From NCBI GenBank assembly GCA_001796415.1, contig MGML01000069.1:1-12928 (forward strand): a DNA stretch of 12,928 nt, read 5' to 3'. The first letter of the stretch is position 1; every line of letters begins with the position of its first letter. Shown here piece by piece: positions 1 to 12,781 of the stretch. The notes under the pieces are model-generated. The model had not been told where the DNA came from, ran no database searches, and was given only the letters and a program-made list of their open reading frames with translations. The DNA comes from Chloroflexi bacterium RBG_13_46_14. Its GTDB lineage: Bacteria; Chloroflexota; Dehalococcoidia; Dehalococcoidales; UBA2162. A program made the position numbers and the translations under genes.

Positions 1-3000
1 AGATACATAGATGAGGATCTCTGTGTAGGCTGCAGAAACTGCGCTACTTACTGCCCTTACACCGTTTCTAATCCGTTTGATGAAAATCTCGGACCTGCAA
101 AAGCGATAGATATCTGGTGTCCTCAGGCTATTCCTGCTTCTGCGGCCATCAATCGCGATGTCTGCCTTTTTTTCGATGATAAATGCACCATATGTAAATC
201 GGTCTGCCAGGCAAAGGCGATCGACTTCAAGCAGAAAAAGAAAAGAGGGATAATGCATGTCGGGGCAATTATTGTCAGCCCCGGATACGAGATATTCGAC
301 GCGAAGCTGGCGGGTGCTTATGGCTACGGACGCATGAAAAATGTGGTCAACAGCCTCGAGTTCGAACGAATGTCGAATGCTTCAGGTCCGTTTAACGGTG
401 AAGTTGTCCGTTTGTCTGATGGTAAAATCCCGCACAAGATTGCATGGCTGCAATGCGTCGGTTCACGCGATTCAGGCCTGGGAAATACCTATTGCTCAGG
501 TATATGCTGCACGTACGCCCTGAAACAAATGATCCTGGTAAAGAATCATCACCCGGATATGGAAGTAGCGATATTCCATAACGATATCAGGACATTCGGC
601 AAAGGTTTCGAAGATTTTTATAAACGGGCTAAGGAAATGGAAGGTGCCCGATTTATCAGGAAGAGAATTTCTTCGGTTAAGGAAAATAAGCGAAATAATA
701 ACCTCATTGTTTCTTACGTCACCGACGATCATACCGTACAGGAAGAAGAATTCGATTTGATAGTACTCTCCGTCGGAATGAGTCCCGCAAAAGATAACAG
801 GGCACTGGCGGAGATAATGGGATTCGAACTTAATGAACACGGCTTCTGTGAAACAAGCGGATTAACACCAAACGAGATTACCGGCAAGCCCGGTATTTAT
901 CCTGCTGCCACATTCACCGCACCGATCGATATTCCCGACTCTATCAGTTCAGCCAGCGGTTCAGGTGCGATGGCAGCCCAGTTATTATCAAGCCAGAGAG
1001 GAACTCTCGCCCAGATAAAGATATACCCCGATGAAAGATCGGTCGAAGGCGAAGAACCCAGGATCGGTGTCTTTGTATGCAACTGTGGCACCAACATAGG
1101 CGGAGTTGCCGATGTTCCCGCTCTTGTCGAATACGCCCGGACTCTCGACGATGTAGTTCATTGCGAAGAACACACTATCTCATGCGGTTCCGATTCACTC
1201 CGTAAAATAACCGAAGCCATAAAAGCAAAAGGACTGAATCGAGTCGTTGTTGCAGCCTGTACCCCCAGAGACCACGAAACAGTGTTCCGTGAAGCGTTAC
1301 GTGAAGCCGGGTTAAACCCTTATCTGCTGGATATGGCTAACATCAGGGAACACTGCACCTGGGTACACTCTTTCGAAAAAGAAGAAGCCACGGAAAAGGC
1401 AAAGGACACCATCGCCATGTCTGTCGCCCGGGCACGCAATCTTACGGAACTGGAGGAACTTGAGCTTCCGGTAAATCCGAAAGGCCTGGTGCTCGGCGGC
1501 GGTCTTGCCGGAATGAACGCGGCTCTTTCGCTTGCCCGGCAGGGATTTGAAGTATATCTTGTAGAGAAGGAAAACGAACTGGGTGGTCACGCCAGGCATA
1601 TTCACTACACGCTTGAAGGACTGGAAGTAGGACCTTATCTCGAACAGATAATCTCGGAAGTAGAGAATGAAAGGAATATCACGCTGTATAAGGGATATGA
1701 ACTGACCAATTTCGCCGGATATGTCGGCAACTTCAGGAGTACACTGGTCAAGACCGGCGAACATGATTCAGAGTCAATCGAGCTTCAGCATGGTATTACG
1801 ATACTTGCCACCGGGGGAAGTTCCTATACACCGACCGAATATAATTATGGGCAGAGTTCCCGGATAGTGACGCAGCAGGAACTTGAAGAAATGATCTCGG
1901 CTGGTACCTTGCCTAAAGACATCAAGACCGTATCAATGATCCAGTGTGTCGGCGCCAGAAATGAAGAACACGGTTATTGCAGTCGTATCTGCTGTGGCGT
2001 AGCTTTGAAAAATGCTCTTAAACTTAAGGAAATAAATCCCGATACGGAAATTACGGTGTTTTACCGCGATATGAGGGCTTACGGCTTCAAAGAGGATTAT
2101 TATCTCGAAGCCAGGGACAAAGGAGTCCTGTTCATCCAGTATGAACCCGAAAGACAGCCGGAAGTATCGGTAAATGGTGACAACCTGACACTCCAATATT
2201 ATGACAGCACGATAAACATGGAGGGTGAGATCAAGCCCGACCTGCTGGTACTCAGTACACCCGTCGTCCCGGACGGCAACCGAGAATTATCTCAATTACT
2301 CAGGCTTCCGTTAACCGGTGACGGATTCTTCATGGAAGCTCATATGAAACTGAGACCGCTTGATTTCGCGACCGACGGTATCTTCCTCTGCGGGATGGCA
2401 CAATATCCCAAGGATATTCCCGACTCTATCAACCAGGCGAAAGGCGCAGCCCTTCGCGCAGCTACTATCCTGTCCAAGGATACCATCGTTGCCAGCGGCG
2501 CTATCTGCGAAGTGAACGAGGAAGACTGTATCGGATGTGGGCTCTGCACCAGAGGTTGTCCTTATAATGCAATAGAGATGCTGGAAACAGAGGTAGGCAA
2601 GGTAGCTCATGTAATACCAGCCGCCTGCAAGGGATGCGGTGTGTGCAACGCCGTTTGCCCTACCCAGGCTATATCTCTCAATCACTTCACCGACCAGCAG
2701 ATATTTTCTCAAATAGATGCCGCTTATACCGTACCTATCGATGAAGATAAACCGAAGATACTTACTATACTGTGCAACTGGTGTGGTTATGCGGCTGCCG
2801 ACCTTGCCGGAGTATCAAGGATTCAATACGCTTCGAATACGCGGACAATAAGAGTCCTGTGTTCCGGTCGGGTACATCCCAAGTTTGTCTACGACGCTTA
2901 TCTGAAAGGTATAGACGCTGTTCTCGTAGTCGGATGCCATCCGGCGGACTGTCACTATATTTCGGGTGTCCAGCAGCAGATACGGACCATTCCAATTACC

Positions 3001-3258
3001 CAGAAAGGTCTTGAAAAAATAGGTATCGAACCTTCCAGGCTAAAACTTGAATTCGCCTCAGCCGCAGAAGGAGCGGCTTTCGCGGCAATCATAAATAATT
3101 ACACCGATGAAATTACTAAAATTGGTCACCTTGAATTAACCGATGAGCAGAAAGAAAAGCTGGTAACGCTCAGGGACAAGAGAACCCTGCCAAAGAAGAA
3201 AGGGAAAGCGGCAAGTGCAGCAGCAATTGACGACGGAGAAAATACCGCCTCGGAATAA
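1..3258 (+). CDS. HdrA-like tandem flavoprotein fused to MvhD domain (5' partial)
   Basis: Subunit A-like protein of a soluble heterodisulfide reductase, the FAD and Fe-S scaffold for electron bifurcation or confurcation. The frame is open from base 1, so the start lies outside; the ATG at 253 is not the start, because a ferredoxin insertion is encoded before it (Cys 8, 11, 14, 18 and 62, 65, 69, numbering from base 1). 1085 residues are visible. Two HdrA modules lie in tandem: each has a QCVG(S/A)R motif followed by a YCxxICC motif (Cys 152/165/169/170 and 649/660/664/665). The second begins near residue 354 with CNCG (Cys 360, 362) and has an FAD-binding GGGLAG at 499-504. Two [4Fe-4S] motifs follow (Cys 843/846/849/853 and 876/879/882/886), then an MvhD/FlpD domain from about 918 (Cys 925, 928, 954, 979, 984). 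Similar domains occur in QmoB- and HdrL-type proteins. It overlaps hdrC by 44 nt. The family call is secure; the physiological partner is unknown. Confidence 0.93.
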   Translation, partial: RYIDEDLCVGCRNCATYCPYTVSNPFDENLGPAKAIDIWCPQAIPASAAINRDVCLFFDDKCTICKSVCQAKAIDFKQKKKRGIMHVGAIIVSPGYEIFDAKLAGAYGYGRMKNVVNSLEFERMSNASGPFNGEVVRLSDGKIPHKIAWLQCVGSRDSGLGNTYCSGICCTYALKQMILVKNHHPDMEVAIFHNDIRTFGKGFEDFYKRAKEMEGARFIRKRISSVKENKRNNNLIVSYVTDDHTVQEEEFDLIVLSVGMSPAKDNRALAEIMGFELNEHGFCETSGLTPNEITGKPGIYPAATFTAPIDIPDSISSASGSGAMAAQLLSSQRGTLAQIKIYPDERSVEGEEPRIGVFVCNCGTNIGGVADVPALVEYARTLDDVVHCEEHTISCGSDSLRKITEAIKAKGLNRVVVAACTPRDHETVFREALREAGLNPYLLDMANIREHCTWVHSFEKEEATEKAKDTIAMSVARARNLTELEELELPVNPKGLVLGGGLAGMNAALSLARQGFEVYLVEKENELGGHARHIHYTLEGLEVGPYLEQIISEVENERNITLYKGYELTNFAGYVGNFRSTLVKTGEHDSESIELQHGITILATGGSSYTPTEYNYGQSSRIVTQQELEEMISAGTLPKDIKTVSMIQCVGARNEEHGYCSRICCGVALKNALKLKEINPDTEITVFYRDMRAYGFKEDYYLEARDKGVLFIQYEPERQPEVSVNGDNLTLQYYDSTINMEGEIKPDLLVLSTPVVPDGNRELSQLLRLPLTGDGFFMEAHMKLRPLDFATDGIFLCGMAQYPKDIPDSINQAKGAALRAATILSKDTIVASGAICEVNEEDCIGCGLCTRGCPYNAIEMLETEVGKVAHVIPAACKGCGVCNAVCPTQAISLNHFTDQQIFSQIDAAYTVPIDEDKPKILTILCNWCGYAAADLAGVSRIQYASNTRTIRVLCSGRVHPKFVYDAYLKGIDAVLVVGCHPADCHYISGVQQQIRTIPITQKGLEKIGIEPSRLKLEFASAAEGAAFAAIINNYTDEITKIGHLELTDEQKEKLVTLRDKRTLPKKKGKAASAAAIDDGENTASE

Positions 3259-3793
3259 CGAATTTACGAATAAGATAGCCGCTGAAGTCAGGTACCTCAA
3301 TCGATGCTACCAGTGCTCGATGTGCAGCGACGGATGTCCCGTTGCTTATGCGATGGATTATTACCCCAACCAGGTAATCCATCTCGTCCGGCTCGGTCTC
3401 AAAGAAAAAGTATTGAAAAGCACTACCATATGGCTGTGCGCTTCCTGCGAGACCTGTGCCACTCGCTGTCCTAATGAAATAGAGATCGTCCGTCTGATGG
3501 ACATACTTCGAGAAGAATCGGTAAAAGCCGGTGTCAACAGCCGGGTGAGTAATATACTCAAATTTCACCAGGCATTCCTGGAACAGATAAAGAAAAAGGG
3601 CAGGATCGATGAAGTAAGCCTGATGATTAGCTACGAGATGAAATCACGTGAATTCCTCTCTGTTTCGAAGATAAAGGAACTGGCGGCTATGGCAATTGGA
3701 ATGTTTAAGAAGGGTAAGATTAAGTTTCCTTCGTTGAAGAGATACTCGACCGGAGAGATCAAGTCTATTTATAAAAAGGTTTTTTCTCGCTAA
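3215..3793 (+). CDS. hdrC: HdrC-like ferredoxin subunit
   Basis: Small iron-sulfur subunit (192 aa) that carries electrons between HdrA and HdrB. Two [4Fe-4S] motifs are plain: Cys 31/34/37/41 (CYQCSMCSDGCP) and Cys 75/78/81/85 (CASCETCATRCP), with spacing typical of HdrC. There is no membrane anchor, so this is the soluble type. The basic C-terminal tail (about 110-192) has no cysteines. The start is a GTG, with AGGGA about 10 nt upstream inside the end of hdrA, giving a 44-nt overlap in another frame and suggesting translational coupling. No in-frame ATG precedes the first cluster; the only later candidate before conserved sequence is a TTG at 3227, so the GTG is preferred. hdrB follows 27 nt downstream. 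Confidence 0.9.
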   Translation: MQQQLTTEKIPPRNNEFTNKIAAEVRYLNRCYQCSMCSDGCPVAYAMDYYPNQVIHLVRLGLKEKVLKSTTIWLCASCETCATRCPNEIEIVRLMDILREESVKAGVNSRVSNILKFHQAFLEQIKKKGRIDEVSLMISYEMKSREFLSVSKIKELAAMAIGMFKKGKIKFPSLKRYSTGEIKSIYKKVFSR

Positions 3794-3820
3794 AATATTT
3801 CCCAAGGGAAAAATGAATTT

Positions 3821-4678
3821 ATGAAATACGCATACTATCCTGGATGTACGGCAACAACCACATCAGTCGAATATGAAGAATCCGTCAGGGAAATAGCCGG
3901 ATATCTTGACATCGAGTTCACAGAAATACCGGACTGGACATGTTGCGGCGCCAGTTCAGGTCATGTAATAAACCGCGAGCTTTCCCTTGCTCTGCCGTCC
4001 CGTAACCTTGCCCTTGCTGAAAAGATGAATATGGATGTTGTCGCACCCTGTCCAGGTTGTTTATTACGTTTTAAGACTGCGGAATACGAGCTTGGCAGAG
4101 ATCCAGCGCTGAAATCAAAGATCGAAGAAGACATAGGTTTGAAACTAAATCTTTCACATAAATCGCGTCACGTTCTGGAAATCCTGTACCGGGATATCGG
4201 CGTACAAACCATCAGAGATAAAGTAGTAAGACCGCTCGAAGGTCTAAAAATAGCACCATATTACGGATGTGTTCTGGTTCGTCCTCCTGAGGTTACTTCC
4301 TTCGATAATCCGGAGAATCCCACGATTATGGACGAGATAATGGAAGCCCTGGGAGCCGAGATTGTTGACTGGTCGTATAAGGTTGACTGCTGTGGAGGTT
4401 CTCTCTCTATAGTCGTTCCGGAAATAGTAAAGAAATTATCCGGGAAGATTATACAGGGAGCCAGGGAAGCCGGGGCTGATATGATAGTAACTGCCTGTGG
4501 AATCTGCCAGCTTAACCTGGATATGCGCCAGCCGAAGGAACCTAATACTGAACCCTTACCTGCGCTCTATTTCAGTGAGTTGATGGCACACGCTTTCGGC
4601 AGCCAGGGTATTAAAGGATGGGCTGAGAAGCACTTCATTGATCCGTCGATAAAACTTGCCGAACTTGGTTTGCTTTAA
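3821..4678 (+). CDS. hdrB: HdrB-like CCG-domain subunit
   Basis: Catalytic subunit of HdrABC-type complexes, in which each CCG domain binds a non-cubane [4Fe-4S] cluster that reduces a disulfide or another acceptor. The protein is 285 aa, a normal length for HdrB. Both CCG domains are intact: Cys 9, 41-42, 77, 80 (a C-X31-CC-X34-CxxC pattern) and Cys 150, 190-191, 226, 229 (C-X39-CC-X34-CxxC). No signal peptide or membrane segment is visible. It is the last gene of the hdrA-hdrC-hdrB run and ends 9 nt from the stop codon of the convergent paaX-type gene, so no separate terminator fits between them. The SD is weak: AAGGG lies 12 nt before the ATG. The natural acceptor cannot be read from the sequence; in a non-methanogen it need not be CoM-S-S-CoB. 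Confidence 0.9.
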   Translation: MKYAYYPGCTATTTSVEYEESVREIAGYLDIEFTEIPDWTCCGASSGHVINRELSLALPSRNLALAEKMNMDVVAPCPGCLLRFKTAEYELGRDPALKSKIEEDIGLKLNLSHKSRHVLEILYRDIGVQTIRDKVVRPLEGLKIAPYYGCVLVRPPEVTSFDNPENPTIMDEIMEALGAEIVDWSYKVDCCGGSLSIVVPEIVKKLSGKIIQGAREAGADMIVTACGICQLNLDMRQPKEPNTEPLPALYFSELMAHAFGSQGIKGWAEKHFIDPSIKLAELGLL

Positions 4679-4687
4679 ACGCTTAAT

Positions 4688-5509
4688 CTAGTACTCCGCC
4701 AGTACTGAATCGAAATACTGGTTTGCCTTTTCAGTAAGTATTTCGTGATAACGATCGAAAAGATCCATTGCCTCCGAACGCAACCAGTTTTTAGGAAGAA
4801 GCTCTTCAGGAAGATCCGGATCCAGGTACGGCAGCCGTCGATAATCATCAATCAGTTTGAATCTCTGGACAAAGTATTCACTGGATTCAATGTTTTCACC
4901 TTTATCGATGCGTGCCTGGTGGTCTTCCATCTTTTTCCGGTATTCTTTTATAAATGCGTTATACCTTTTATGAATCTTCTGGAGATCCCAGCATCTGGCT
5001 ACTATTCCTGTCGGGTCATTCGAATTTTTCATCCTTGTCTGAAATACCTGTATATAAGGCCTTATTTCCAGTTTATCTGCCAGTTCTATCACCTCATCGG
5101 TAAGGTCATGGGGCGATATCCAGGTAGCGGTGGTCAAAGGGCCGAAACCCATCCAGGCGAGTTCTCTGCGGAGTCTATCCCTTGCTTCCCTGTTCTCTTC
5201 TGGAATGTAATAGACTACCAGGTTCCACAGACCGTTCCATTTATCGCGTTTCCGCTCGAAAATCCTTCTCTCGCCTTTGTACATTAAAGCCTGACCTTCA
5301 TCGCTCAGTGAATAATAACTTCGTGACCTGTTGCGTCTGACCTTTAATATACTCGCGCGGCACATGCGTGAAACCGCCGACCTGATGGAATTTTCGGAAA
5401 GACCGAAGTTACTTAGAAGAGCTATGAGACTGCCTATTCCTATTTCACCGCCTCTATGGCGAACATAATCACCATAGAGAGTAAGCATTGCAGACCTGGG
5501 ACCGAACAT
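4688..5509 (-). CDS. PaaX-family transcriptional regulator
   Basis: DNA-binding regulator of 273 aa. PaaX proteins usually repress aromatic (phenylacetyl-CoA) catabolism by binding a CoA thioester ligand. The N-terminal winged helix covers about residues 1-75, beginning with the family-typical PRSAMLTLYGDYVRHRGGEI and continuing to a wing at RNRSRSYYSLSDEG. The central domain starts near KWNGLWNLVVYYIPEENR, and the C-terminal domain includes RSEAMDLFDRYHEI. The length fits the family. The first ATG is kept because the conserved N-terminus begins right after it; a GGTGA lies about 8 nt upstream. It converges on hdrB with a 9-nt gap. Its own promoter carries two copies of an operator-like sequence, so autoregulation is likely. 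No paa catabolic genes are visible, so its ligand and targets are unknown. Confidence 0.88.
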   Translation of the reverse strand: MFGPRSAMLTLYGDYVRHRGGEIGIGSLIALLSNFGLSENSIRSAVSRMCRASILKVRRNRSRSYYSLSDEGQALMYKGERRIFERKRDKWNGLWNLVVYYIPEENREARDRLRRELAWMGFGPLTTATWISPHDLTDEVIELADKLEIRPYIQVFQTRMKNSNDPTGIVARCWDLQKIHKRYNAFIKEYRKKMEDHQARIDKGENIESSEYFVQRFKLIDDYRRLPYLDPDLPEELLPKNWLRSEAMDLFDRYHEILTEKANQYFDSVLAEY

Positions 5510-5513
5510 AGTA

Positions 5514-5595
5514 TGTCACCGTAACAATATTGCGTTAATTAAGCGATAGATTATGTTAACACGTGACTTATGAGGTGTCAACATGACAATATCGC
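5514..5595 (-). promoter_or_regulatory. paaX-type gene promoter with two operator-like repeats
   Basis: On the minus strand a perfect -35 TTGACA (5576-5581) is followed after 17 nt by TAACAT (5553-5558, 4/6 to the -10 consensus). Two 20-bp direct repeats match at 16 of 20 positions: 5576-5595, covering the -35 box, and 5514-5533, between the predicted transcription start and the start codon. On the plus strand each contains a dyad of the form TGTCA-N3-TRACA followed by ATATYGC. The copies are 62 bp apart, close to six helical turns. The placement fits an autoregulatory operator pair; PaaX binding is inferred. Confidence 0.55.
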
Positions 5596-5631
5596 TAAGA
5601 AATGAGTATACGGGTAATACGAATGATCAGT

Positions 5632-5949
5632 CTACGGATGGGTTCCTCTGACTACTTCTATCTCCAGTTCATCCTGTATTGCTTTCTCATACAGGTCGAC
5701 TGTTGGGCATGGATGTACCAGGCAGTTTCCGAGGTGTATCACCTCAGCGCCTTTTTCCTTAAGCTTGCTTGCTTTCTCCAGTATCTTATCCGCTTTACCT
5801 CTACCGCAGCCGCCACAGGTATCGAATCCGATAAGTTCGATATCACTGTATCTCTCAAAACTCCCCTTCTTTTCCTGTAACGCCGGAAAACAGTGAAATC
5901 CTGCACAATTGTTGCTGTGTTCACCACACCTGATAATACCTATTTTCAT
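5632..5949 (-). CDS. CGGC-domain cysteine-rich protein
   Basis: Small cytoplasmic protein of 105 aa matching the CGGC domain family. Visible features are Cys 8, 15 and 20 near the N-terminus, the signature CGGC at 45-48 (TCGGCGRG), and NCLVHPCP with Cys 76 and 81. The conserved Cys and His have led to a proposed metal-binding role for the family; its biochemical role is not established. The SD is good (GAGGGGCGG about 6 nt before the ATG). It starts 23 nt after the stop of the selenoprotein gene on the same strand, so the two are almost certainly one operon. That context makes a redox or metal partner of the selenoprotein plausible, but this is inference. Confidence 0.85.
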   Translation of the reverse strand: MKIGIIRCGEHSNNCAGFHCFPALQEKKGSFERYSDIELIGFDTCGGCGRGKADKILEKASKLKEKGAEVIHLGNCLVHPCPTVDLYEKAIQDELEIEVVRGTHP

Positions 5950-5972
5950 TAATTACCGCCCCTCTACTATAT

Positions 5973-7631
5973 TTATCGCCATTCGTCTACAGACGCAGTA
6001 CCGAGTAATCCAAGACTACCGGCCTGCCAGTAAGGATTCGTCTCACCACCGGCGACCATTATATTAACATCCAATTCTCGCGTAATCGGTATCTTGACTC
6101 CTTCCGGCAGTTTAAGCCATGAAGCATAAGGTTCTTCACCGGCTTTTGCTCTCGCCAGCTCCTCAGGATGTCCGCCTTCCGGAAACTGACCGGGAAAGCC
6201 CCAGTACTGTTTCTGATCGTATTTAACATTTTCTTTCAGCCACTGATGGAATTCTTCCTTAGTTTTATATCCAAGATCGTCATGGAGCATCATCGCCACT
6301 AGCGGATCCATCACGATAGAAGCTCCGCAGCACTGGAAATTATCCTCGAAGAATATTCTGATTGTCTGGTCCTTCCATGACTCGAAGCCACCCATATTAC
6401 TCCAGTTCCAGCCATGAAATACACTGACTACGCTTTCTTCAGGCTTATATCCTTTCAGCACATGGAAAGGTTTCCATCCTTCAGGTAGTCGTTCTTCACG
6501 TTCACCAAAACAGAGATTCGTAAAGTTGTGTCCCTGACCCTGGCTTCCCATATAATTCAGCCCCGGCGTGACTCTGCCGCCAAGGTTCTTCGATACCAGC
6601 GACCACGCCGCCCCAATGGATGCATTCGCATGATTAAAGGGACCAAATGTGCCTATGGACATGTTCATCTTTATTTCGTTTCTTATCGGGCCGTTCACGC
6701 AGACCATCGCCGTAAACGAATTGGTAGATGTGAACAGAGCAGTATGTCCCATAGAAGCAACAGCAAGAATTACCGGAAAATACTCAGGTTTCGCTCCGGC
6801 TATAACGGCATTCACCGCAACCTGTTCTACGTTATAGGACCATTTCTCATGTGGAGATGACGGTGCCATTTCAGCGACTTTTTCATCGGGCTTACGACTC
6901 GTCCCTTTCAGCATGGCTTCCACCCGTTCTTCGGTCGGCACGATTATGGGCAGATACAAAGTCCAGCCGTTATTCCTGAACAGTTCCTGGAAATTCTCTT
7001 CGGTATCGGTACCCAGTATTCTCTGGCGGGGTCTCTCGATATTTCCCGTTTTCGATTCGTCTTCATTCAGGGATAGAGTGAGGTGATCCACGATCTCCTG
7101 TAAAACCTGTCTCCCGGTTACAGGATCTTTGCCCAGCAGCTTCTGCCGGCACTCCTCAGACGGCCTGTAAGCAACAGGATGCTGGACGAAAGCTACTCTC
7201 AAGTGCTGCATACCTTTGCCATAAAGAGACTCCCGCACAGGCGTCTCAAACGTATTGGTAATGACCGGTACTGAAGGTATGCCCATCTTTTCGGCTGTGA
7301 CACAGTGGCCGGCAACCGCCGGCGCGCAGGTGCTTCAATGTCCGACGTACTGGATCATCCCGTCACCTTTTTCTTTTATCTCTGCCCATAGTTGAGGATC
7401 ATCAGCAAAATATGAACCTGCTTTCTGTCTGTAAACAAAATTCGTTTTGGGATAATTTTCTTTCAAGAGGTTTACGAGTTCTTCACCAAACTGTTCACTC
7501 GCCGGAAATTTGGCGTCGACTATATAGATGGTTTTACCATCAAGAGTATCGAGTCGGGGTGACATCGGCTGTAACTGCAGTGGAGGTAAGGTACCGAGTG
7601 GACTTAATACAGTAACGGTCTTTTCAACCAT
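5973..7631 (-). CDS. UGSC-family selenoprotein, UGA read as Sec99
   Basis: A 552-aa selenoprotein candidate read through one in-frame UGA at 7335-7337. Residues 1-98 (7631-7338) and the part after the UGA are in the same frame with no other stop. The junction reads YVGH-U-STC-APAVAGHC, so Sec99 sits in a U-x-x-C redox motif with Cys102. The region from about 20 to 150 (IYIVDAKFPASEQFGEEL, EKMGIPSVPVITNTFE) resembles the UGSC (seleno)protein family as I recall it. A second domain (about 205-552) contains ANASIGAAWSLVSKNLGG and a vicinal CC at 434-435. The SD is strong (AGGAGGG, 7 nt before ATG 7631). A standard caller would split it, starting a 437-aa ORF at ATG 7286 that lacks an obvious SD and loses the motif. 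The CGGC gene follows in the operon. The reaction is unknown; a thiol/selenol oxidoreductase is likely. The alternative is a nonsense mutation, which the hairpin and motif make unlikely. Confidence 0.87.
7308..7323 (-). promoter_or_regulatory. Bacterial SECIS-like hairpin after the UGA
   Basis: In the mRNA, 11 nt after the UGA, a 6-bp all-GC stem GCCGGC/GCCGGC closes a 4-nt loop, GGUU (7314-7317). The loop starts 17 nt after the UGA and its first two bases are G. Bacterial SECIS elements typically have a short apical loop with a G in its first two positions, roughly 16-37 nt after the UGA. A weaker lower stem (GCAC, 2-5 nt after the UGA, with GUGU, 32-35 nt after) extends the fold around an internal loop. 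It lies inside the coding sequence, as expected for SelB-dependent Sec insertion. Confidence 0.75.
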
Positions 7632-7694
7632 AAATAATCCCTCCTGAAAACGTCCTTGAGATTAAATCATACTACTTTCCACGTTATTTATAAA
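7632..7694 (-). promoter_or_regulatory. Promoter and RBS of the selenoprotein-CGGC operon
   Basis: On the minus strand TTTATA (7689-7694, 4/6 to the -35 consensus) and TATGAT (7666-7671, 5/6 to the -10 consensus) are 17 nt apart. The leader of about 28 nt ends in a strong AGGAGGG, 7 nt before the ATG. A small AGCC-GAA-GGCT dyad (7694-7704) lies between this -35 and that of the divergent arylsulfotransferase-like gene. Confidence 0.5.
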
Positions 7695-7705
7695 GCCGAA
7701 GGCTC

Positions 7706-7760
7706 TTGACATTAATGCTTCTCTCACATAAAGTTTGAATAATTTAACGAATACAAGGAG
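7706..7760 (+). promoter_or_regulatory. Promoter and RBS of the arylsulfotransferase-like gene
   Basis: A perfect -35 TTGACA (7706-7711) is followed after 17 nt by TAAAGT (7729-7734, 4/6 to the -10 consensus). AAGGAG (7755-7760) lies 8 nt before the ATG at 7769, giving a short leader of about 28 nt. The CATAAAGT around the -10 also occurs at the LUD gene promoter near 12044-12051. Confidence 0.6.
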
Positions 7761-7768
7761 ATGTCCAT

Positions 7769-9157
7769 ATGACCTATAATGTTTTCCCTACAGGTACAAC
7801 AATATACGATCCTGTAAACTGTTGGAATGGTTACACGATATTCCAGGCACGTATGTTTGAAAACAAGTCCTCGGTCGCCGTACTTATCGACATGAACGGA
7901 AATGTCGTTAATCAGTGGAAAGGTCTGGACGGCATACCGAACAAGATGCTTCCCGGTGGTTATGTCATGGGTAACACTGGTTCAAGAAATCAAAAGTATG
8001 GTTTCCAGGACCAGCTTGATCTTGTACAGGTTGACTGGGAAGGTAATATCGTCTGGAAGTTCAACAGGTACGAACGGATAAAAGACGGACGCAGCAAGCC
8101 AGTCTGGATGGCAAGACAGCACCATGATTATCAGCGTGAAGGGAATCCGGTCGGCTATTATGTTCCCGGCATGGATCCGAAGGTAGAAAACGGTGATACC
8201 CTCCTGCTGTGCCATAAGAACCTCTATAACAAAAAAATCACGGAAAAACTCCTCCTCGACGATACGATAATAGAGGTTGACTGGAATGGCAAGGTTATCT
8301 GGGAATGGATATGTTCCGACCATTTTGAAGAAATGGGATTTACCGAGGATGCTAAAAACACCCTTGCCCGTACTCCGGGCATGTTCGATGCGGGAGACCG
8401 CGGCAGCGACTGGACACATATAAACTCCATGTCCACCCTGGGACCTAACAAATGGTATGACGCCGGTGACGAAAGATTTCATCCCGAAAATATCATCTGG
8501 GATGGTCGCCAGACCAATATCATCGCGATTATTGAAAAGAAAACCGGCAAGCTAGTCTGGCAGATAGGGCCAGAATATAATACCTCACCCGAGTTAAAGA
8601 AACTCGGCTGGATCATCGGCCAGCATCATGCCCATATGATTCCAAAAGGTCTCCCCGGCGAAGGTAATATTCTTGTTTTCGATAACGGCGGTTCCGCAGG
8701 CTACGGCGCCTCGAATCCCGGCGCTCCCAACGGAGTCGGTGTCGCACGACGGGATCATTCACGTATACTGGAAATCGATCCTGTCACACTCGAACTGGTC
8801 TGGAGCAACGCTCCTGCCGCCATGGGACCGGGCTTACCCAACCAGGGAGTACGAATCTACAGCGGTCATATCAGCTCAGCCCAGCGTCTCCCTAATGGTA
8901 ATACTCTTATCACAGAAGGAGCCAGTGGTCATCTTCTCGAGGTAACTAACGATCGAGAGATTGTCTGGGAGTACGTCAGCCCGTATTTCAACAGGAAGAA
9001 TGTAAATCACGTGTACCGGGCATACCGCCTGCCGTATGAATGGGTACCGCAGGTCGACAAACCGGAAGAGATACCGGTAGCACGTTTAGATAATTCGAAA
9101 TTCAGAGTCCCGGGTTCACCGCCTGCACGTGTCCGGAAGACAACCCGTATAAAATGA
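7769..9157 (+). CDS. Arylsulfotransferase-like (ASST fold) beta-propeller protein
   Basis: A 462-aa protein resembling the arylsulfotransferase (ASST) family, which in characterised members moves sulfate between phenolic donors and acceptors through a sulfated histidine. The sequence shows repeated propeller blades ending in a W-rich strand: VQVDWEGNIVWKF (86-98), IEVDWNGKVIWEW (168-180), KKTGKLVWQI (257-266) and later EIVWEYVSPYF. Histidines typical of an ASST-like centre are present (H118/H119, H217 in DWTHINSM, H286/H287/H289 in GQHHAHM, H367 in YSGHISS), but I cannot assign the catalytic one. Unlike periplasmic AssT it has no signal peptide and starts directly with MTYNVFPTG, so it should be cytoplasmic. 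It is divergent from the selenoprotein operon and ends in its own terminator. Substrate unknown; the propeller might serve another function. Confidence 0.8.
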   Translation: MTYNVFPTGTTIYDPVNCWNGYTIFQARMFENKSSVAVLIDMNGNVVNQWKGLDGIPNKMLPGGYVMGNTGSRNQKYGFQDQLDLVQVDWEGNIVWKFNRYERIKDGRSKPVWMARQHHDYQREGNPVGYYVPGMDPKVENGDTLLLCHKNLYNKKITEKLLLDDTIIEVDWNGKVIWEWICSDHFEEMGFTEDAKNTLARTPGMFDAGDRGSDWTHINSMSTLGPNKWYDAGDERFHPENIIWDGRQTNIIAIIEKKTGKLVWQIGPEYNTSPELKKLGWIIGQHHAHMIPKGLPGEGNILVFDNGGSAGYGASNPGAPNGVGVARRDHSRILEIDPVTLELVWSNAPAAMGPGLPNQGVRIYSGHISSAQRLPNGNTLITEGASGHLLEVTNDREIVWEYVSPYFNRKNVNHVYRAYRLPYEWVPQVDKPEEIPVARLDNSKFRVPGSPPARVRKTTRIK

Positions 9158-9376: not shown

Positions 9377-10639
9377 CTAGTTATACACGCCGTATTCGTG
9401 TGTAAAGTCTATCATTGCTTTCAGGTTCTCGGGTTTCACTTCATCGGTCGAGCTTCTTGGCGATAAAATGAATCCGCCGTCTTTACCGATATCGTCTATC
9501 AATTTCTTGCAGTAATCCTTTACATCATCAACAGTGCCGGTCTGGAGTAAGGATGAAGGAACGTTACCCTGGATACAGAGATGACCTTTCAGGATTTCCT
9601 TGGCCTTATGTATATCGGTGGTGTCCAGGCGTACTATCATTTTGCCTTTTGGCAGTTCGAGCAGGTATTCCAGTTTCTTTGTAAAATTTCCTTCAAAGAA
9701 AACACACATCGTCCCGCCGCGTTCGGTCATTGTCTCGATTACTTTTTTGAATGAAGGCCAGTAAAATTTTTCAAAAAGTTTATTGGACAGAAAGTCATCT
9801 GAACCCCTGGTATTTGTCATGAATAATCGCTTATATCCATTTTCACTGGGAGGTGGCATTGGACTGGATAAAGACCGTTTCAATATTTTATCAATAGCTG
9901 CCAGGATCTTATCGGGATTGCGATACAGGTCGATCATTGTTCCCTGCATTCCTCTAAGCGAGTGAGAAATCATGTCGAACGGAGGCATCGCTGCACCCTG
10001 GAAATAGGTGGGATGACCCATATCCTGCATCATCTGGCTGAACTTCTGGGAAACCACCATGTGCTTGCGTGCCTCCCGCCCGTATTCCATGAGTGTCTCT
10101 ATCGCCAGGGCTACTTCAGGATCCGACATTGCCATTCCGAGCATCTGGGCACCGCCGCCACCCATAAGACCGGCAAGATCGGGAAGCTTAGCGAGTCCGG
10201 CAAGTTTGTCACTGTTACGTGGCATGAACTTTCTCAGCATATAATTTCCGGTATCGCTGAGATACTCATCCCAATCCTCCGAATTCATGGCTTCGATCTC
10301 AATGGACTGATGTCCTTTGTATTCATCAACGCCGTATCCGGGCCAGCGCATTGTCTTAAGCGCCAGGATTTCCATCGCTTTACCAGGGGACGGCATCTGG
10401 GGGTAAATCAGGTCGGCCTGGAAATCTTTTAACGTCATCTTATACGCGTTATACCATGTATCGTGGTCATAGTACGCTGCCGAAGAAGGCACACCGGCGT
10501 TTTTCCCGGGGAAGTACCCCATACCGCATATTATGGGAACCCGGTCCGGTATCTCGAGCCTGATAGTCTTGTGTATCCGGTCTTCTTTTTCTTTTCTAAG
10601 CTGTTTTGCGGTCTTTCCCTCCGCGATAATTTCATCCAT
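9377..10639 (-). CDS. Uroporphyrinogen decarboxylase (URO-D) superfamily protein
   Basis: A 420-aa protein of the URO-D/corrinoid methyltransferase superfamily (TIM-barrel; MtaA/MtbA/CmuA relatives transfer methyl groups from corrinoids). Supporting motifs are RLEIPDRVPI near residue 30, GHLCIQGNVPSSLL at 352-365, the helix VKDYCKKLIDDIGKDGGFIL, and the family-typical ending VKPENLKAMIDFTHEYG. Cys355 sits in the CIQGNVP strand, but the position after FILSP, where methyltransferase members often have a Cys zinc ligand, reads RSS (395-397). A standard zinc site therefore looks incomplete. It is too divergent and long to be housekeeping HemE. The SD is good (GGAGGG, 8 nt before the ATG). It follows the MFS gene by 43 nt, so they probably share a transcript. 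Substrate unknown; it may act on the compound the transporter moves. Confidence 0.83.
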   Translation of the reverse strand: MDEIIAEGKTAKQLRKEKEDRIHKTIRLEIPDRVPIICGMGYFPGKNAGVPSSAAYYDHDTWYNAYKMTLKDFQADLIYPQMPSPGKAMEILALKTMRWPGYGVDEYKGHQSIEIEAMNSEDWDEYLSDTGNYMLRKFMPRNSDKLAGLAKLPDLAGLMGGGGAQMLGMAMSDPEVALAIETLMEYGREARKHMVVSQKFSQMMQDMGHPTYFQGAAMPPFDMISHSLRGMQGTMIDLYRNPDKILAAIDKILKRSLSSPMPPPSENGYKRLFMTNTRGSDDFLSNKLFEKFYWPSFKKVIETMTERGGTMCVFFEGNFTKKLEYLLELPKGKMIVRLDTTDIHKAKEILKGHLCIQGNVPSSLLQTGTVDDVKDYCKKLIDDIGKDGGFILSPRSSTDEVKPENLKAMIDFTHEYGVYN

Positions 10640-10682
10640 TGAACAAACCCTCCACTCTAGAATTTATTACTAATTTTAATAA

Positions 10683-11963
10683 TTAACCCGTAATTTCCGG
10701 ATATTTCCTGTTTCGTCTGCTTCTCCAAAGGAACAATGAACATACCACGGTAATTACTGCGGTAGCAATACTGGAATAGCTGAAAGTCCGCGCAAAACCG
10801 ATAGCATCGATAAGCGTACCTACCACCGGCGCCAGGGGCGCGCCAATACCGGTACCCGAAAAATAATATATACCCATAATGGTAGCCCTTCTGTTTGCAG
10901 GAACATTACTTGTCAGATAACTCTCCGATGTCGGCATGCGAGTATTCATTACGAATCCCATTATTATCATCAAAGTAATCAACGTCGCCACGTTAGGGGC
11001 TCTTCCCATGAAATAAACGAGAGGTATCGAAAGATAAGCCACTATCAGTATCATACGCATGCTGCCGAACCTGTCTGAAAAATAACCACCAAGAGGAGCG
11101 GCAACCAGACCGATCGCGGGAGTTATCGACATCATAAGCCCGGCATCTGTTTCCGAAACGTAAAGAACATCGGTGGCATACAGCGACAAATACCCCATGG
11201 CAGACTGTACAACCGTGCCGGTAAAAACACTGATGACTAGAAATGAAATAATAGCGCTCCACCGAATAGAGTCAACCTTTTCAGGTATTTCTTCCTGTGG
11301 TTGTTCCTGTCTTCTCCGGGCATCGATTTTTGCCTGTTTACCAATCATGAAATAAAGAATAATTCCTGCGATGGCTATAGGAATCGATATAACCAGGTAC
11401 GGCATCTGCCAGCCCCATTTAGCTGCGATCGGGGTTGCGATAAGAGGGAAAATCCAGAAAGCGGAGGTACCGCCGATAAGATGAATCCCCAGTGTCCTTC
11501 CGCGGAATTCCTCCTTGACCGATGAAGATATCGCCGCCGCCGAAGCCGGATGATACCCGGCGCCGAGGATGGCTGATATAATCATAAAAACGATCAGCCA
11601 GGTAAACGAATGTGTGAATCCAAGGAAAAATCCGGCAATGGCGACACCGGTGACACCCAGCAGCACCATGATACGCACACCGAGTTTATCGGCAATTATC
11701 CCGGCGGGAAGTTGAGCCAGTCCGCCGGTAAGCATAAAAGCCCCTCGCATCAGGCCAATTTGCGTGTAACTCAACTTCAGGTCATTGCGGATCATGGGCT
11801 GGAGTGGATTCATCATGGCACCAATTCCATGGTGACCGAAATGCGCCAGGAGAAAAAGCGGCAGCATTCCGGTTAAATATGGACGGAGGTTAATTCGTTT
11901 GATTTTGCTTAAAAAAGAACCGTTCCCGGAGGTATAGGGATCGGCATTCTGCGAATCGCTCAT
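10683..11963 (-). CDS. Major facilitator superfamily transporter
   Basis: Inner-membrane secondary transporter of 426 aa, the usual MFS length, with about 12 hydrophobic helices. The MFS loop motif appears after helix 2 (AGIIADKLGVRIM) and in degenerate form in the second half (GGYFSDRFGSMRMIL), which supports a 6+6 topology. The charged central loop (KQAKIDARRRQEQPQEEIPEKVD) separates the halves. Start at the ATG 11963 gives a roughly 30-residue hydrophilic N-terminus; no SD is visible and the -10 box lies only 11 nt upstream, so translation may be leaderless. It is first in a likely operon with the URO-D gene and divergent from the LUD gene. Some motifs (helix 4-5 region GAGYHPASAAAISS) are common in nitrate/organic-anion-type MFS members, but I cannot name a substrate. 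Confidence 0.9.
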   Translation of the reverse strand: MSDSQNADPYTSGNGSFLSKIKRINLRPYLTGMLPLFLLAHFGHHGIGAMMNPLQPMIRNDLKLSYTQIGLMRGAFMLTGGLAQLPAGIIADKLGVRIMVLLGVTGVAIAGFFLGFTHSFTWLIVFMIISAILGAGYHPASAAAISSSVKEEFRGRTLGIHLIGGTSAFWIFPLIATPIAAKWGWQMPYLVISIPIAIAGIILYFMIGKQAKIDARRRQEQPQEEIPEKVDSIRWSAIISFLVISVFTGTVVQSAMGYLSLYATDVLYVSETDAGLMMSITPAIGLVAAPLGGYFSDRFGSMRMILIVAYLSIPLVYFMGRAPNVATLITLMIIMGFVMNTRMPTSESYLTSNVPANRRATIMGIYYFSGTGIGAPLAPVVGTLIDAIGFARTFSYSSIATAVITVVCSLFLWRSRRNRKYPEITG

Positions 11964-11974
11964 ATTGATTTATT

Positions 11975-12027
11975 ATTATAGGGATTCTTGCCCGATGTTA
12001 CAACCTGGTGAACATACCTGGTTGACA
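11975..12027. promoter_or_regulatory. Divergent MFS/LUD promoters with a shared dyad
   Basis: Minus strand: TTGTAA (11998-12003) and a perfect TATAAT (11975-11980) spaced 17 nt, for the MFS gene. Plus strand: a perfect TTGACA (12022-12027), followed after 18 nt by TAAAGT (12046-12051), for the LUD gene. Between them lies an inverted repeat CAACCtGGT-N6-ACCtGGTTG (12001-12009 and 12016-12024, one central mismatch per arm) that overlaps both -35 boxes. A protein bound there could block both genes. No regulator for it is identified. Confidence 0.6.
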
Positions 12028-12065
12028 GCCAGACTTGTTAAATCATAAAGTGGGATATATAACAA

Positions 12066-12079
12066 CCGAGGAGGTAAGA
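12066..12079 (+). promoter_or_regulatory. RBS that fixes the LUD start
   Basis: A near-perfect Shine-Dalgarno CGAGGAGGT lies 5-6 nt before the ATG at 12080. The in-frame ATG at 12035 has no SD and sits upstream of the predicted transcription start (about 12058), so 12080 is the better start. Confidence 0.85.
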
Positions 12080-12781
12080 ATGGTTTCAGGAAATAAACAG
12101 GATATTGAGCAAGTAGTAAAGTCACTAAAAGATAACCGCTTCGAAACGGTGGTTGTTGTGGACGACAAGGAAGCTGCCGTAAAAGCGGTACTTGAAATGA
12201 TTCCCGACGATGCCACTGTGGGGACAGGGGGTTCGATGACCGTAAACCAGACGGGGGTGCGTGATATCTTAACGGAGAAAGGTAATATTAAACCCTTCAT
12301 CCCCGGACAGCCAAGGCCGGCCCAGGCCGATATTTTCCTTTCCAGCAGCAACGCCATTACGCTGGACGGTAAAATCGTAAATATCGACTCAACAGGCAAC
12401 AGAGTTTCGCAAATGATATACGGTCCTTCGAAGGTTATCCTTGTAATAGGCCAGAACAAGATAGCCGCCGACGTTGACGAAGCACTTGACAGAGTTCAGA
12501 ATATCATCTCACCGATTCATGGTAAAACCATGGGTATCGACGCGCCCTGCGCCAAAGATGGGAAATGCCATGACTGTAAATCTCCCGGCAGGATATGCAA
12601 TGTCACTACCATTATCAGGAAAAAGCCGAGAATGACCAATATATGTATCGTGCTGGTAGCCGAAGACCTGGGTCTCGGCTGGGATCCCGGATGGCCGCAG
12701 GAGCGAATCGATAACATCTATCAGAATTACGAAAACCAGTGGGAGATTGAAAAAGCCCGATTCAGACCACCGGTTAAATAG
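12080..12781 (+). CDS. LUD-domain protein (LutC/DUF162-like)
   Basis: A 233-aa protein of the LUD domain family, named for lactate-utilisation proteins LutB/LutC; stand-alone members of this type are common in anaerobes and mostly uncharacterised. The fold signature is clear: TVVVVDDKEAAVKAVLEMIP, TVGTGGSMTVNQTGVRDIL (47-64), DIFLSSSNAITLDGKIVNIDSTGNR (84-108) and the nucleotide-binding-like VILVIGQNKIAADVDEAL. A C-terminal cluster of Cys 157, 163, 166 and 173 (C-X5-C-X2-C-X6-C), followed by NVTTIIRKKPR, could bind a metal or Fe-S centre. It is single, divergent from the MFS transporter, and shares an operator-like dyad with it. No LutA or LutB partner is present, so lactate oxidation cannot be claimed. 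No terminator is evident after its TAG stop. Confidence 0.88.
   Translation: MVSGNKQDIEQVVKSLKDNRFETVVVVDDKEAAVKAVLEMIPDDATVGTGGSMTVNQTGVRDILTEKGNIKPFIPGQPRPAQADIFLSSSNAITLDGKIVNIDSTGNRVSQMIYGPSKVILVIGQNKIAADVDEALDRVQNIISPIHGKTMGIDAPCAKDGKCHDCKSPGRICNVTTIIRKKPRMTNICIVLVAEDLGLGWDPGWPQERIDNIYQNYENQWEIEKARFRPPVK

Follow-up and report, generated by a model that had tools for sequence, protein, structure and literature searches.

A UGA-interrupted gene in a Dehalococcoidia genome is best read as a two-domain selenoprotein of the UGSC family, possibly acting on a specific substrate

Does the TGA that lies between two same-frame open reading frames (ORFs) on contig MGML01000069.1 of Chloroflexi bacterium RBG_13_46_14 end a short protein, or is it read as selenocysteine (Sec) within one longer protein? 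The window, i.e., the whole stretch of 12,928 nucleotides (nt) that was analysed, carries on its minus strand a frame running from the ATG at 7631 to a TAA ending at 5973, and its sole interruption is a TGA at 7337-7335, codon 99 of 552. Ninety-eight codons precede the TGA, 16 codons (STCAPAVAGHCVTAEK) separate it from the ATG at 7286, and a 437-codon ORF follows. This is the layout from which the original prediction, made from the sequence alone, had joined both ORFs into a single selenoprotein, and the 552-residue read-through product indeed carries H-U99-S-T-C102, the U-x-x-C motif announced for residues 99-102. By eye, an AGGAGG is located at 7645-7640, 8 nt 5' of the ATG at 7631, and no Shine-Dalgarno-like sequence was seen 5' of the ATG at 7286, in agreement with the claim that only the upstream ORF has a strong one. 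The argument that TGA is rare as a stop also stands, with a corrected gene count: ten genes, rather than nine, end in the window (TAA 5, TAG 4, TGA 1), and the single TGA-stopped gene is the ASST-like gene at 7769-9157. Overall, the best explanation is that the window gene very probably encodes one UGSC-family selenoprotein, for which a substrate-specific Sec chemistry is proposed; judged from aligned sequences, residue 99 itself is almost certainly Sec. The features of the gene are as follows.

5973..7631, minus strand: UGSC-family selenoprotein gene, 552 codons when read through the UGA, stop TAA; PF24696 match of 79.6 bits.
7335..7337, minus strand: UGA codon 99, predicted selenocysteine (U-S-T-C), from the frame, the aligned homologues and the comparison with the relative Dehalococcoidia bacterium W403.
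7640..7645, minus strand: Shine-Dalgarno-like AGGAGG of the selenoprotein gene, from the sequence.

The gene is a member of an already known selenoprotein family, in a divergent two-domain form. PF24696 (UGSC) matches residues 8-164 with 79.6 bits against a gathering cut-off of 25, in line with the family first proposed, and the same profile is matched by all 37 members of alignment A1. With the UGSC family (PF24696, NF041046; the "UGSC-containing protein" of PMC2398784), the window protein shares the PF24696 match, Sec in a UxxC motif and the existence of Cys forms. As differences, it has the motif USTC instead of UGSC, scores below the cut-off of the equivalog NF041046 (UGSC_fam; 64.5 vs 125 bits) and carries an appended C-terminal domain of 355 residues. 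The excerpted text of an earlier survey counts 33 UGSC proteins across 26 organisms (PMC5029168).

Homologues at the aligned position support selenocysteine as the residue that joins both ORFs. A protein search scored 7995 candidates and found 4161 homologues at E <= 0.001, of which the best 120 were listed, and a genome-contig scan turned up 301 relatives, with the best 80 loci being retained. Across the window and these 80 loci (n = 81), the codon at the primary site is TGA in 62, TGC (Cys) in 16 and Leu in 3, so that 78 of 81 sites hold a Sec or Cys codon, the forms that the original prediction had looked for at residue 99. Of the 80 loci, 61 keep the TGA, W403 among them; because of this conservation, and because the coding sequence on either side seems to be under purifying selection relative to W403, the TGA is more than a chance occurrence. 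Among the 120 listed database homologues, residue 99 is Leu in 54, Cys in 16 and Met in 6, is never Trp, and is cut off in 44. Of these last, 37 start at query residue 111-121, just past the Sec codon, which bears out the expectation that automated annotation splits or truncates such genes. An [ST]-x-C-x-P-type sequence between the TGA and the ATG is kept in Sec and Cys forms alike, and the Cys forms read on through this segment with no stop. Leu occupies the primary site at L009, L015 and L016, the last being a Leu form that W403 has alongside its Sec forms. A metagenome bin labelled Bordetella parapertussis (L024) has a Cys form resembling other Burkholderiales loci, and its label may be wrong.

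The relative W403 supplies both a close sequence comparison and the machinery for Sec. Its locus L001 is 93% identical to the window protein over residues 1-552, and its genome is collinear with the window over 1-9157 and 9381-12780 at 83-85% nucleotide identity. The search for selA, selB, selC and selD covered this collinear relative: W403 has tRNA-Sec (68.2 bits, anticodon tca), selA (568.7 bits), selB (337.2 bits) and selD (371.2 bits), all above cut-offs. The selD of W403 (L092) contains one in-frame TGA and is probably a selenoprotein gene too. Between the window and W403, nonsynonymous (dN) and synonymous (dS) divergence are 0.056 and 0.67 in codons 1-98 and 0.031 and 0.99 in codons 116-552, with zero amino-acid changes in codons 100-115; this comparison suggests purifying selection before as well as after the TGA. 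A sequencing error is very unlikely because W403 has the same TGA, and none of the outcomes that the original prediction had named as refuting it came up. A wider survey of selA, using the cut-off of its profile, covered 50 of the 80 loci in 49 other genomes. The gene scores above cut-off in 29 of 33 genomes with TGA at the primary site vs 8 of 16 with TGC (Fisher p 0.01); the assemblies of the Sec loci that have no passing selA (L014, L019, L039 and L043) may be incomplete, and one of the 16 TGC genomes (L074) also has a TGA paralogue.

A candidate hairpin just past the UGA would act as the selenocysteine insertion sequence (SECIS).

7308..7323, minus strand: candidate bacterial SECIS stem-loop GCCGGC-GGUU-GCCGGC, apical loop 7317-7314 (nt 21-24), 17 nt past the UGA, from folding and codon choice.

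Where residues 105-106 are Ala-Val, 44 of 45 Sec forms write the pair as GCG-GTY, vs 2 of 15 Cys forms, while the background for Ala-Val pairs of the same loci is 639/3218 (19.9%) for Sec and 213/1323 (16.1%) for Cys. GCG-GTY at these codons places GGU(C/U) in the hairpin loop and thereby marks a candidate bacterial SECIS. The fdhF element of Escherichia coli is comparable in its loop and spacing. Of 52 distinct Sec sequences, 49, 44, 43 and 51 can form the inner pairs 17-28, 18-27, 19-26 and 20-25, respectively. We regard the Sec-specific codon choice as strong evidence for the putative SECIS; folding energy alone is not significant.

What the protein may do is suggested by its two domains.

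7047..7610, minus strand: UGSC domain, residues 8-195 (Pfam match 8-164), Rossmann-like in the model; probable distant homologue of the UxxC half of GrdB/PrdB.
5976..7040, minus strand: C-terminal partner domain, residues 198-552, with conserved C374, E377, E379, W386 and H390; a separate adjacent gene in genome G028.

The AlphaFold model (predicted local distance difference test score 90) has alternating strands and helices, and Sec99 sits where strand 91-97 gives way to helix 102-115. The chains that match the model best in structure were labelled Rossmann- or flavodoxin-like by the analyst. Profile comparison with hhalign against GrdB, the selenoprotein B of glycine/betaine/sarcosine reductase, and its D-proline reductase counterpart PrdB gave a probability of 91.6 and a score of 48.9 with the UxxC motifs aligned, compared with controls of at most 25.5 (39 column shuffles) and 17.6 (reversed alignment). 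A single PrdB-like protein scored 37.0 against at most 27.0 for 166 neighbour-protein decoys, and the probabilities of the two controlled comparisons were 91.6% and 92.9%. The Sec domain thus appears, on these profile alignments, to share a distant ancestry with the UxxC half of GrdB/PrdB. The likeness to GrdB/PrdB (PF07355, TIGR01918, TIGR04483) is in the aligned strand-UxxC-helix-xGIPTV-strand stretch; these are also Sec enzymes acting on small organic substrates, according to the excerpted text of a 2026 review (PMC13188914). The difference is that the window protein gave no match to PF07355 or TIGR04483 in Pfam/NCBIfam profile searches and that no named family covers its partner domain. 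W403 and G028 each have a PrdB/GrdB-like gene (L121, L120) that contains an in-frame TGA of its own (UPGC, UPVC).

The UGSC family is greatly expanded in some genomes of the same class. A UGSC match occurs in 35 of 100 sampled genomes of the class of W403, W403 included. W403 itself has 26 UGSC matches, 21 with one in-frame TGA, and the 20 TGAs that could be placed at the motif comprise 13 UxxC (UGSC, USTC, UDGC, UPGC) and 7 UxxA. Seven UGSC paralogues of W403 (L113-L119) carry WU[SH]GA, that is, Sec with no second Cys. A 2.7-Mb genome, G029, has 46 UGSC matches, with one TGA in all 40 among the matches listed, together with selA and a tRNA-Sec with anticodon tca; at G029:C1:28985-31084, a UGSC selenogene directly adjoins selA. 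The 5.0-Mb genome G028 has at least 150 scored UGSC matches out of 208 candidates. We analysed 89 stretches of it, 20 of them controls, amounting to ~0.96 Mb of the 5.0 Mb (L124-L142, L148, L153, L168-L216). They contain 137 distinct UGSC domains, and at least 133 genes have UxxC at the TGA; among the remaining domains, one reads UGTU and three have no TGA in the domain, one of these being an 85-residue fragment. The UGTU domain, at L193 (C101), has two in-frame TGA codons in its motif. No pair of the G028 domains is 95% identical over at least 80 residues, the median nearest identity is 69%, and the guanine-cytosine content of UGSC and control stretches is equal (59.7% and 59.5%). TGA ends 45 of 175 long ORFs in these stretches (UGSC ORFs included) and thus still serves as a stop in G028. 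Its selA is present (568 bits), and a tRNA-Sec was searched for in G028 and not recovered. In the excerpted text of the 2026 review, the largest bacterial selenoprotein set is 63 genes in a Methylomirabilota bin, with 57 before that (PMC13188914); the UGSC selenogenes of G028, at least 133 by a count that may reflect co-assembly as the genome may be a metagenome bin, are more than twice this 63, the largest bacterial selenoproteome found in print. Among the papers listed in literature searches on UGSC, Chloroflexota selenoproteins and large selenoproteomes, none mentions such an expansion in its title or the opening lines of its abstract.

The C-terminal domain is best understood from its occurrence in G028. 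Residues 198-552 of the window protein matched no Pfam or NCBIfam family, nor did six stand-alone G028 versions, bar one insignificant NCBIfam match (E 0.24). When the window domain is aligned with 14 stand-alone domains, N274, N313-G314-P315, C374, E377, E379, W386 and H390 are conserved in every row or with a single exception. Both domains occur together in 83 ORFs of the G028 stretches and UGSC occurs alone in 53, and for 45 of these 53 a separate ORF for the C-terminal domain is found within 4 kb on the same strand. Conversely, 48 of 49 stand-alone C-terminal ORFs have a UGSC ORF within 4 kb, a figure favoured by sampling, as most G028 stretches were picked for UGSC genes (the 20 control stretches were in the same scan). 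Since the two domains are fused in some ORFs and adjacent in others, they provide gene-fusion evidence for a two-part enzyme. A UGSC/Unknown_1 fusion, which likewise combines a UGSC protein with a second conserved domain, is mentioned for Figure S1A of PMC2398784; Unknown_1 is a possible counterpart of the window's C-terminal domain.

The neighbours of the G028 genes suggest a link to imported substrates. Among the neighbour ORFs (91 scanned of 121 called), SBP_bac_5 solute-binding proteins number 41, followed by CoA-transferase III (4) and by glycyl-radical enzymes and HMGL-like proteins (3 each). A profile made from the cluster of 41 detects 20.0 solute-binding proteins per 100 kb across UGSC regions totalling 340 kb, vs 3.7 per 100 kb across 402 kb of control regions that were placed at a distance from listed UGSC matches. 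On the same strand, such a gene starts within 5 kb of 58 of 73 UGSC genes and within 3 kb of 51 of 73. This clustering points to substrate-specific catabolism, and by analogy we infer that the window enzyme is a substrate-specific Sec-dependent reductase, the substrate probably differing among paralogues. That its chemistry is reductive in the manner of GrdB/PrdB is a proposal we hold at even confidence. The same balance applies to the broader view that two-part UGSC enzymes form a large class of Sec-dependent, GrdB/PrdB-like catabolic reductases, each for a different imported compound, in a family that exploded in at least one genome of the class (at least 133 genes).

Sequence comparison indicates that tRNA-Sec and SelB decode UGA 99 as Sec, directed by the hairpin just 3' of it. 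In the proposed scheme, the N-terminal domain, Rossmann-like in fold, would be kin to the UxxC half of GrdB/PrdB, and the C-terminal domain would be its partner subunit fused on to it. By analogy with GrdB/PrdB, Sec99 as nucleophile would attack a bound small organic substrate, leading to its reductive cleavage, and Cys102 would resolve the intermediate and form a Se-S bridge. The bridge could be re-reduced by a small carrier, perhaps the adjacent CGGC protein, together with ferredoxin or Hdr-type donors. The other genes of the window that may contribute are listed below.

5632..5949, minus strand: CGGC-domain protein (PF08821), 105 residues, 23 nt downstream of the selenogene on the same strand; possible redox carrier.
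4688..5509, minus strand: PaaX-like transcriptional regulator by profile match; possible regulator of the cluster.
10683..11963, minus strand: MFS transporter by profile match; possible substrate importer.
9377..10639, minus strand: URO-D family protein, weakly MtaA/CmuA-like, by profile match.
1..4678, plus strand: HdrA(FlpD-fused)-HdrC-HdrB-like electron-transfer genes by profile match; possible electron supply.

That the CGGC protein is the carrier for the window enzyme is a tentative idea, less likely than not; W403 has one CGGC match in its genome, at the same place beside the selenogene.

Several observations weigh against parts of this interpretation. Leu or Met stands at residue 99 in 60 of the 120 listed homologues, which suggests that the fold can exist with neither Sec nor Cys there. 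In stability, the hairpin does not surpass dinucleotide shuffles (z -0.14 to -0.96), and among the 52 distinct Sec sequences only 29 retain the outer pair 15-30 and only 28 the outer pair 16-29. Of the 16 Cys sequences, 13, 7, 15 and 15 can form the respective inner pairs as well, so that most Cys forms have three of these pairs. Irrespective of the residues encoded, GGT occupies the loop position in 51 of the 62 Sec forms, but also in 7 of the 16 Cys forms and in all 3 Leu forms. The p value of the codon choice (2.7e-10) is indicative only, as the sequences are related and the Fisher value overstates their independence. For the kinship with GrdB/PrdB, an initial profile comparison that used the narrower alignment A1 yielded a probability of only 8%, and TIGR04483 (PrdB) was matched in 5 of 37 relatives at E <= 0.5, the best match having E 0.0014 and 18.1 bits vs a cut-off of 300. 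Finally, there is no solute-binding protein in the window, and the window's neighbour genes are shared by W403 only among the 80 loci (URO-D also in L016).

As the 2008 description of UGSC proteins proposed, the same selenoprotein might instead be a thioredoxin-like thiol-disulfide oxidoreductase; it would then not be a substrate-cleaving reductase. Its UxxC is akin to CxxC redox motifs, and the excerpted text of the 2026 review groups UGSC with such proteins (PMC13188914). However, the AlphaFold model looks Rossmann- or flavodoxin-like by the analyst's label (the absence of thioredoxin-like chains from the match list proves nothing), the profile of the UGSC domain is akin to that of GrdB/PrdB, and the G028 genes are paired with a second large domain and substrate-binding proteins. 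We therefore consider a thiol-disulfide oxidoreductase unlikely, though the strongest competitor of the substrate-specific reductase. Much further behind is the possibility that the UGA is a true stop, yielding a 98-residue protein and, via re-initiation at the ATG at 7286, a separate 437-residue protein. Two open frames with an ATG past the TGA would fit it, as would the database gene predictions that start relatives past the TGA. However, the [ST]-x-C-x-P-type sequence kept between TGA and ATG, the uninterrupted Cys forms, the lack of any ribosome site seen before ATG 7286 and the Sec-specific codon choice make it highly improbable. Reassignment of UGA (e.g., to Trp), a pseudogene or a sequencing error is scarcely credible, as nothing beyond the in-frame TGA itself speaks for it, whereas another window gene stops at TGA, uncut listed homologues have Cys (16), Leu (54) or Met (6) and never Trp, W403 has Sec machinery, the same TGA recurs in W403 and 60 other loci, and both halves look to be under purifying selection.

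The reading of the gene as one selenoprotein with a proposed substrate-specific Sec chemistry extends the original prediction by the C-terminal partner domain, the kinship with GrdB/PrdB and the expansion of the family. Annotation often starts UGSC proteins past the UGA (residue 99 is missing from 44 of the 120 homologues listed), and their selenocysteine trait is therefore easily overlooked. The notable result is the family's likely chemistry together with its expansion within the same class. The kinship with GrdB/PrdB, the two-domain or two-gene layout and the pairing with solute-binding proteins lead to a testable hypothesis, namely that imported compounds are catabolised reductively by Sec-dependent enzymes. 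Should the G028 count prove correct, the number of genes that a single bacterium can commit to selenium is far above what the literature has described.
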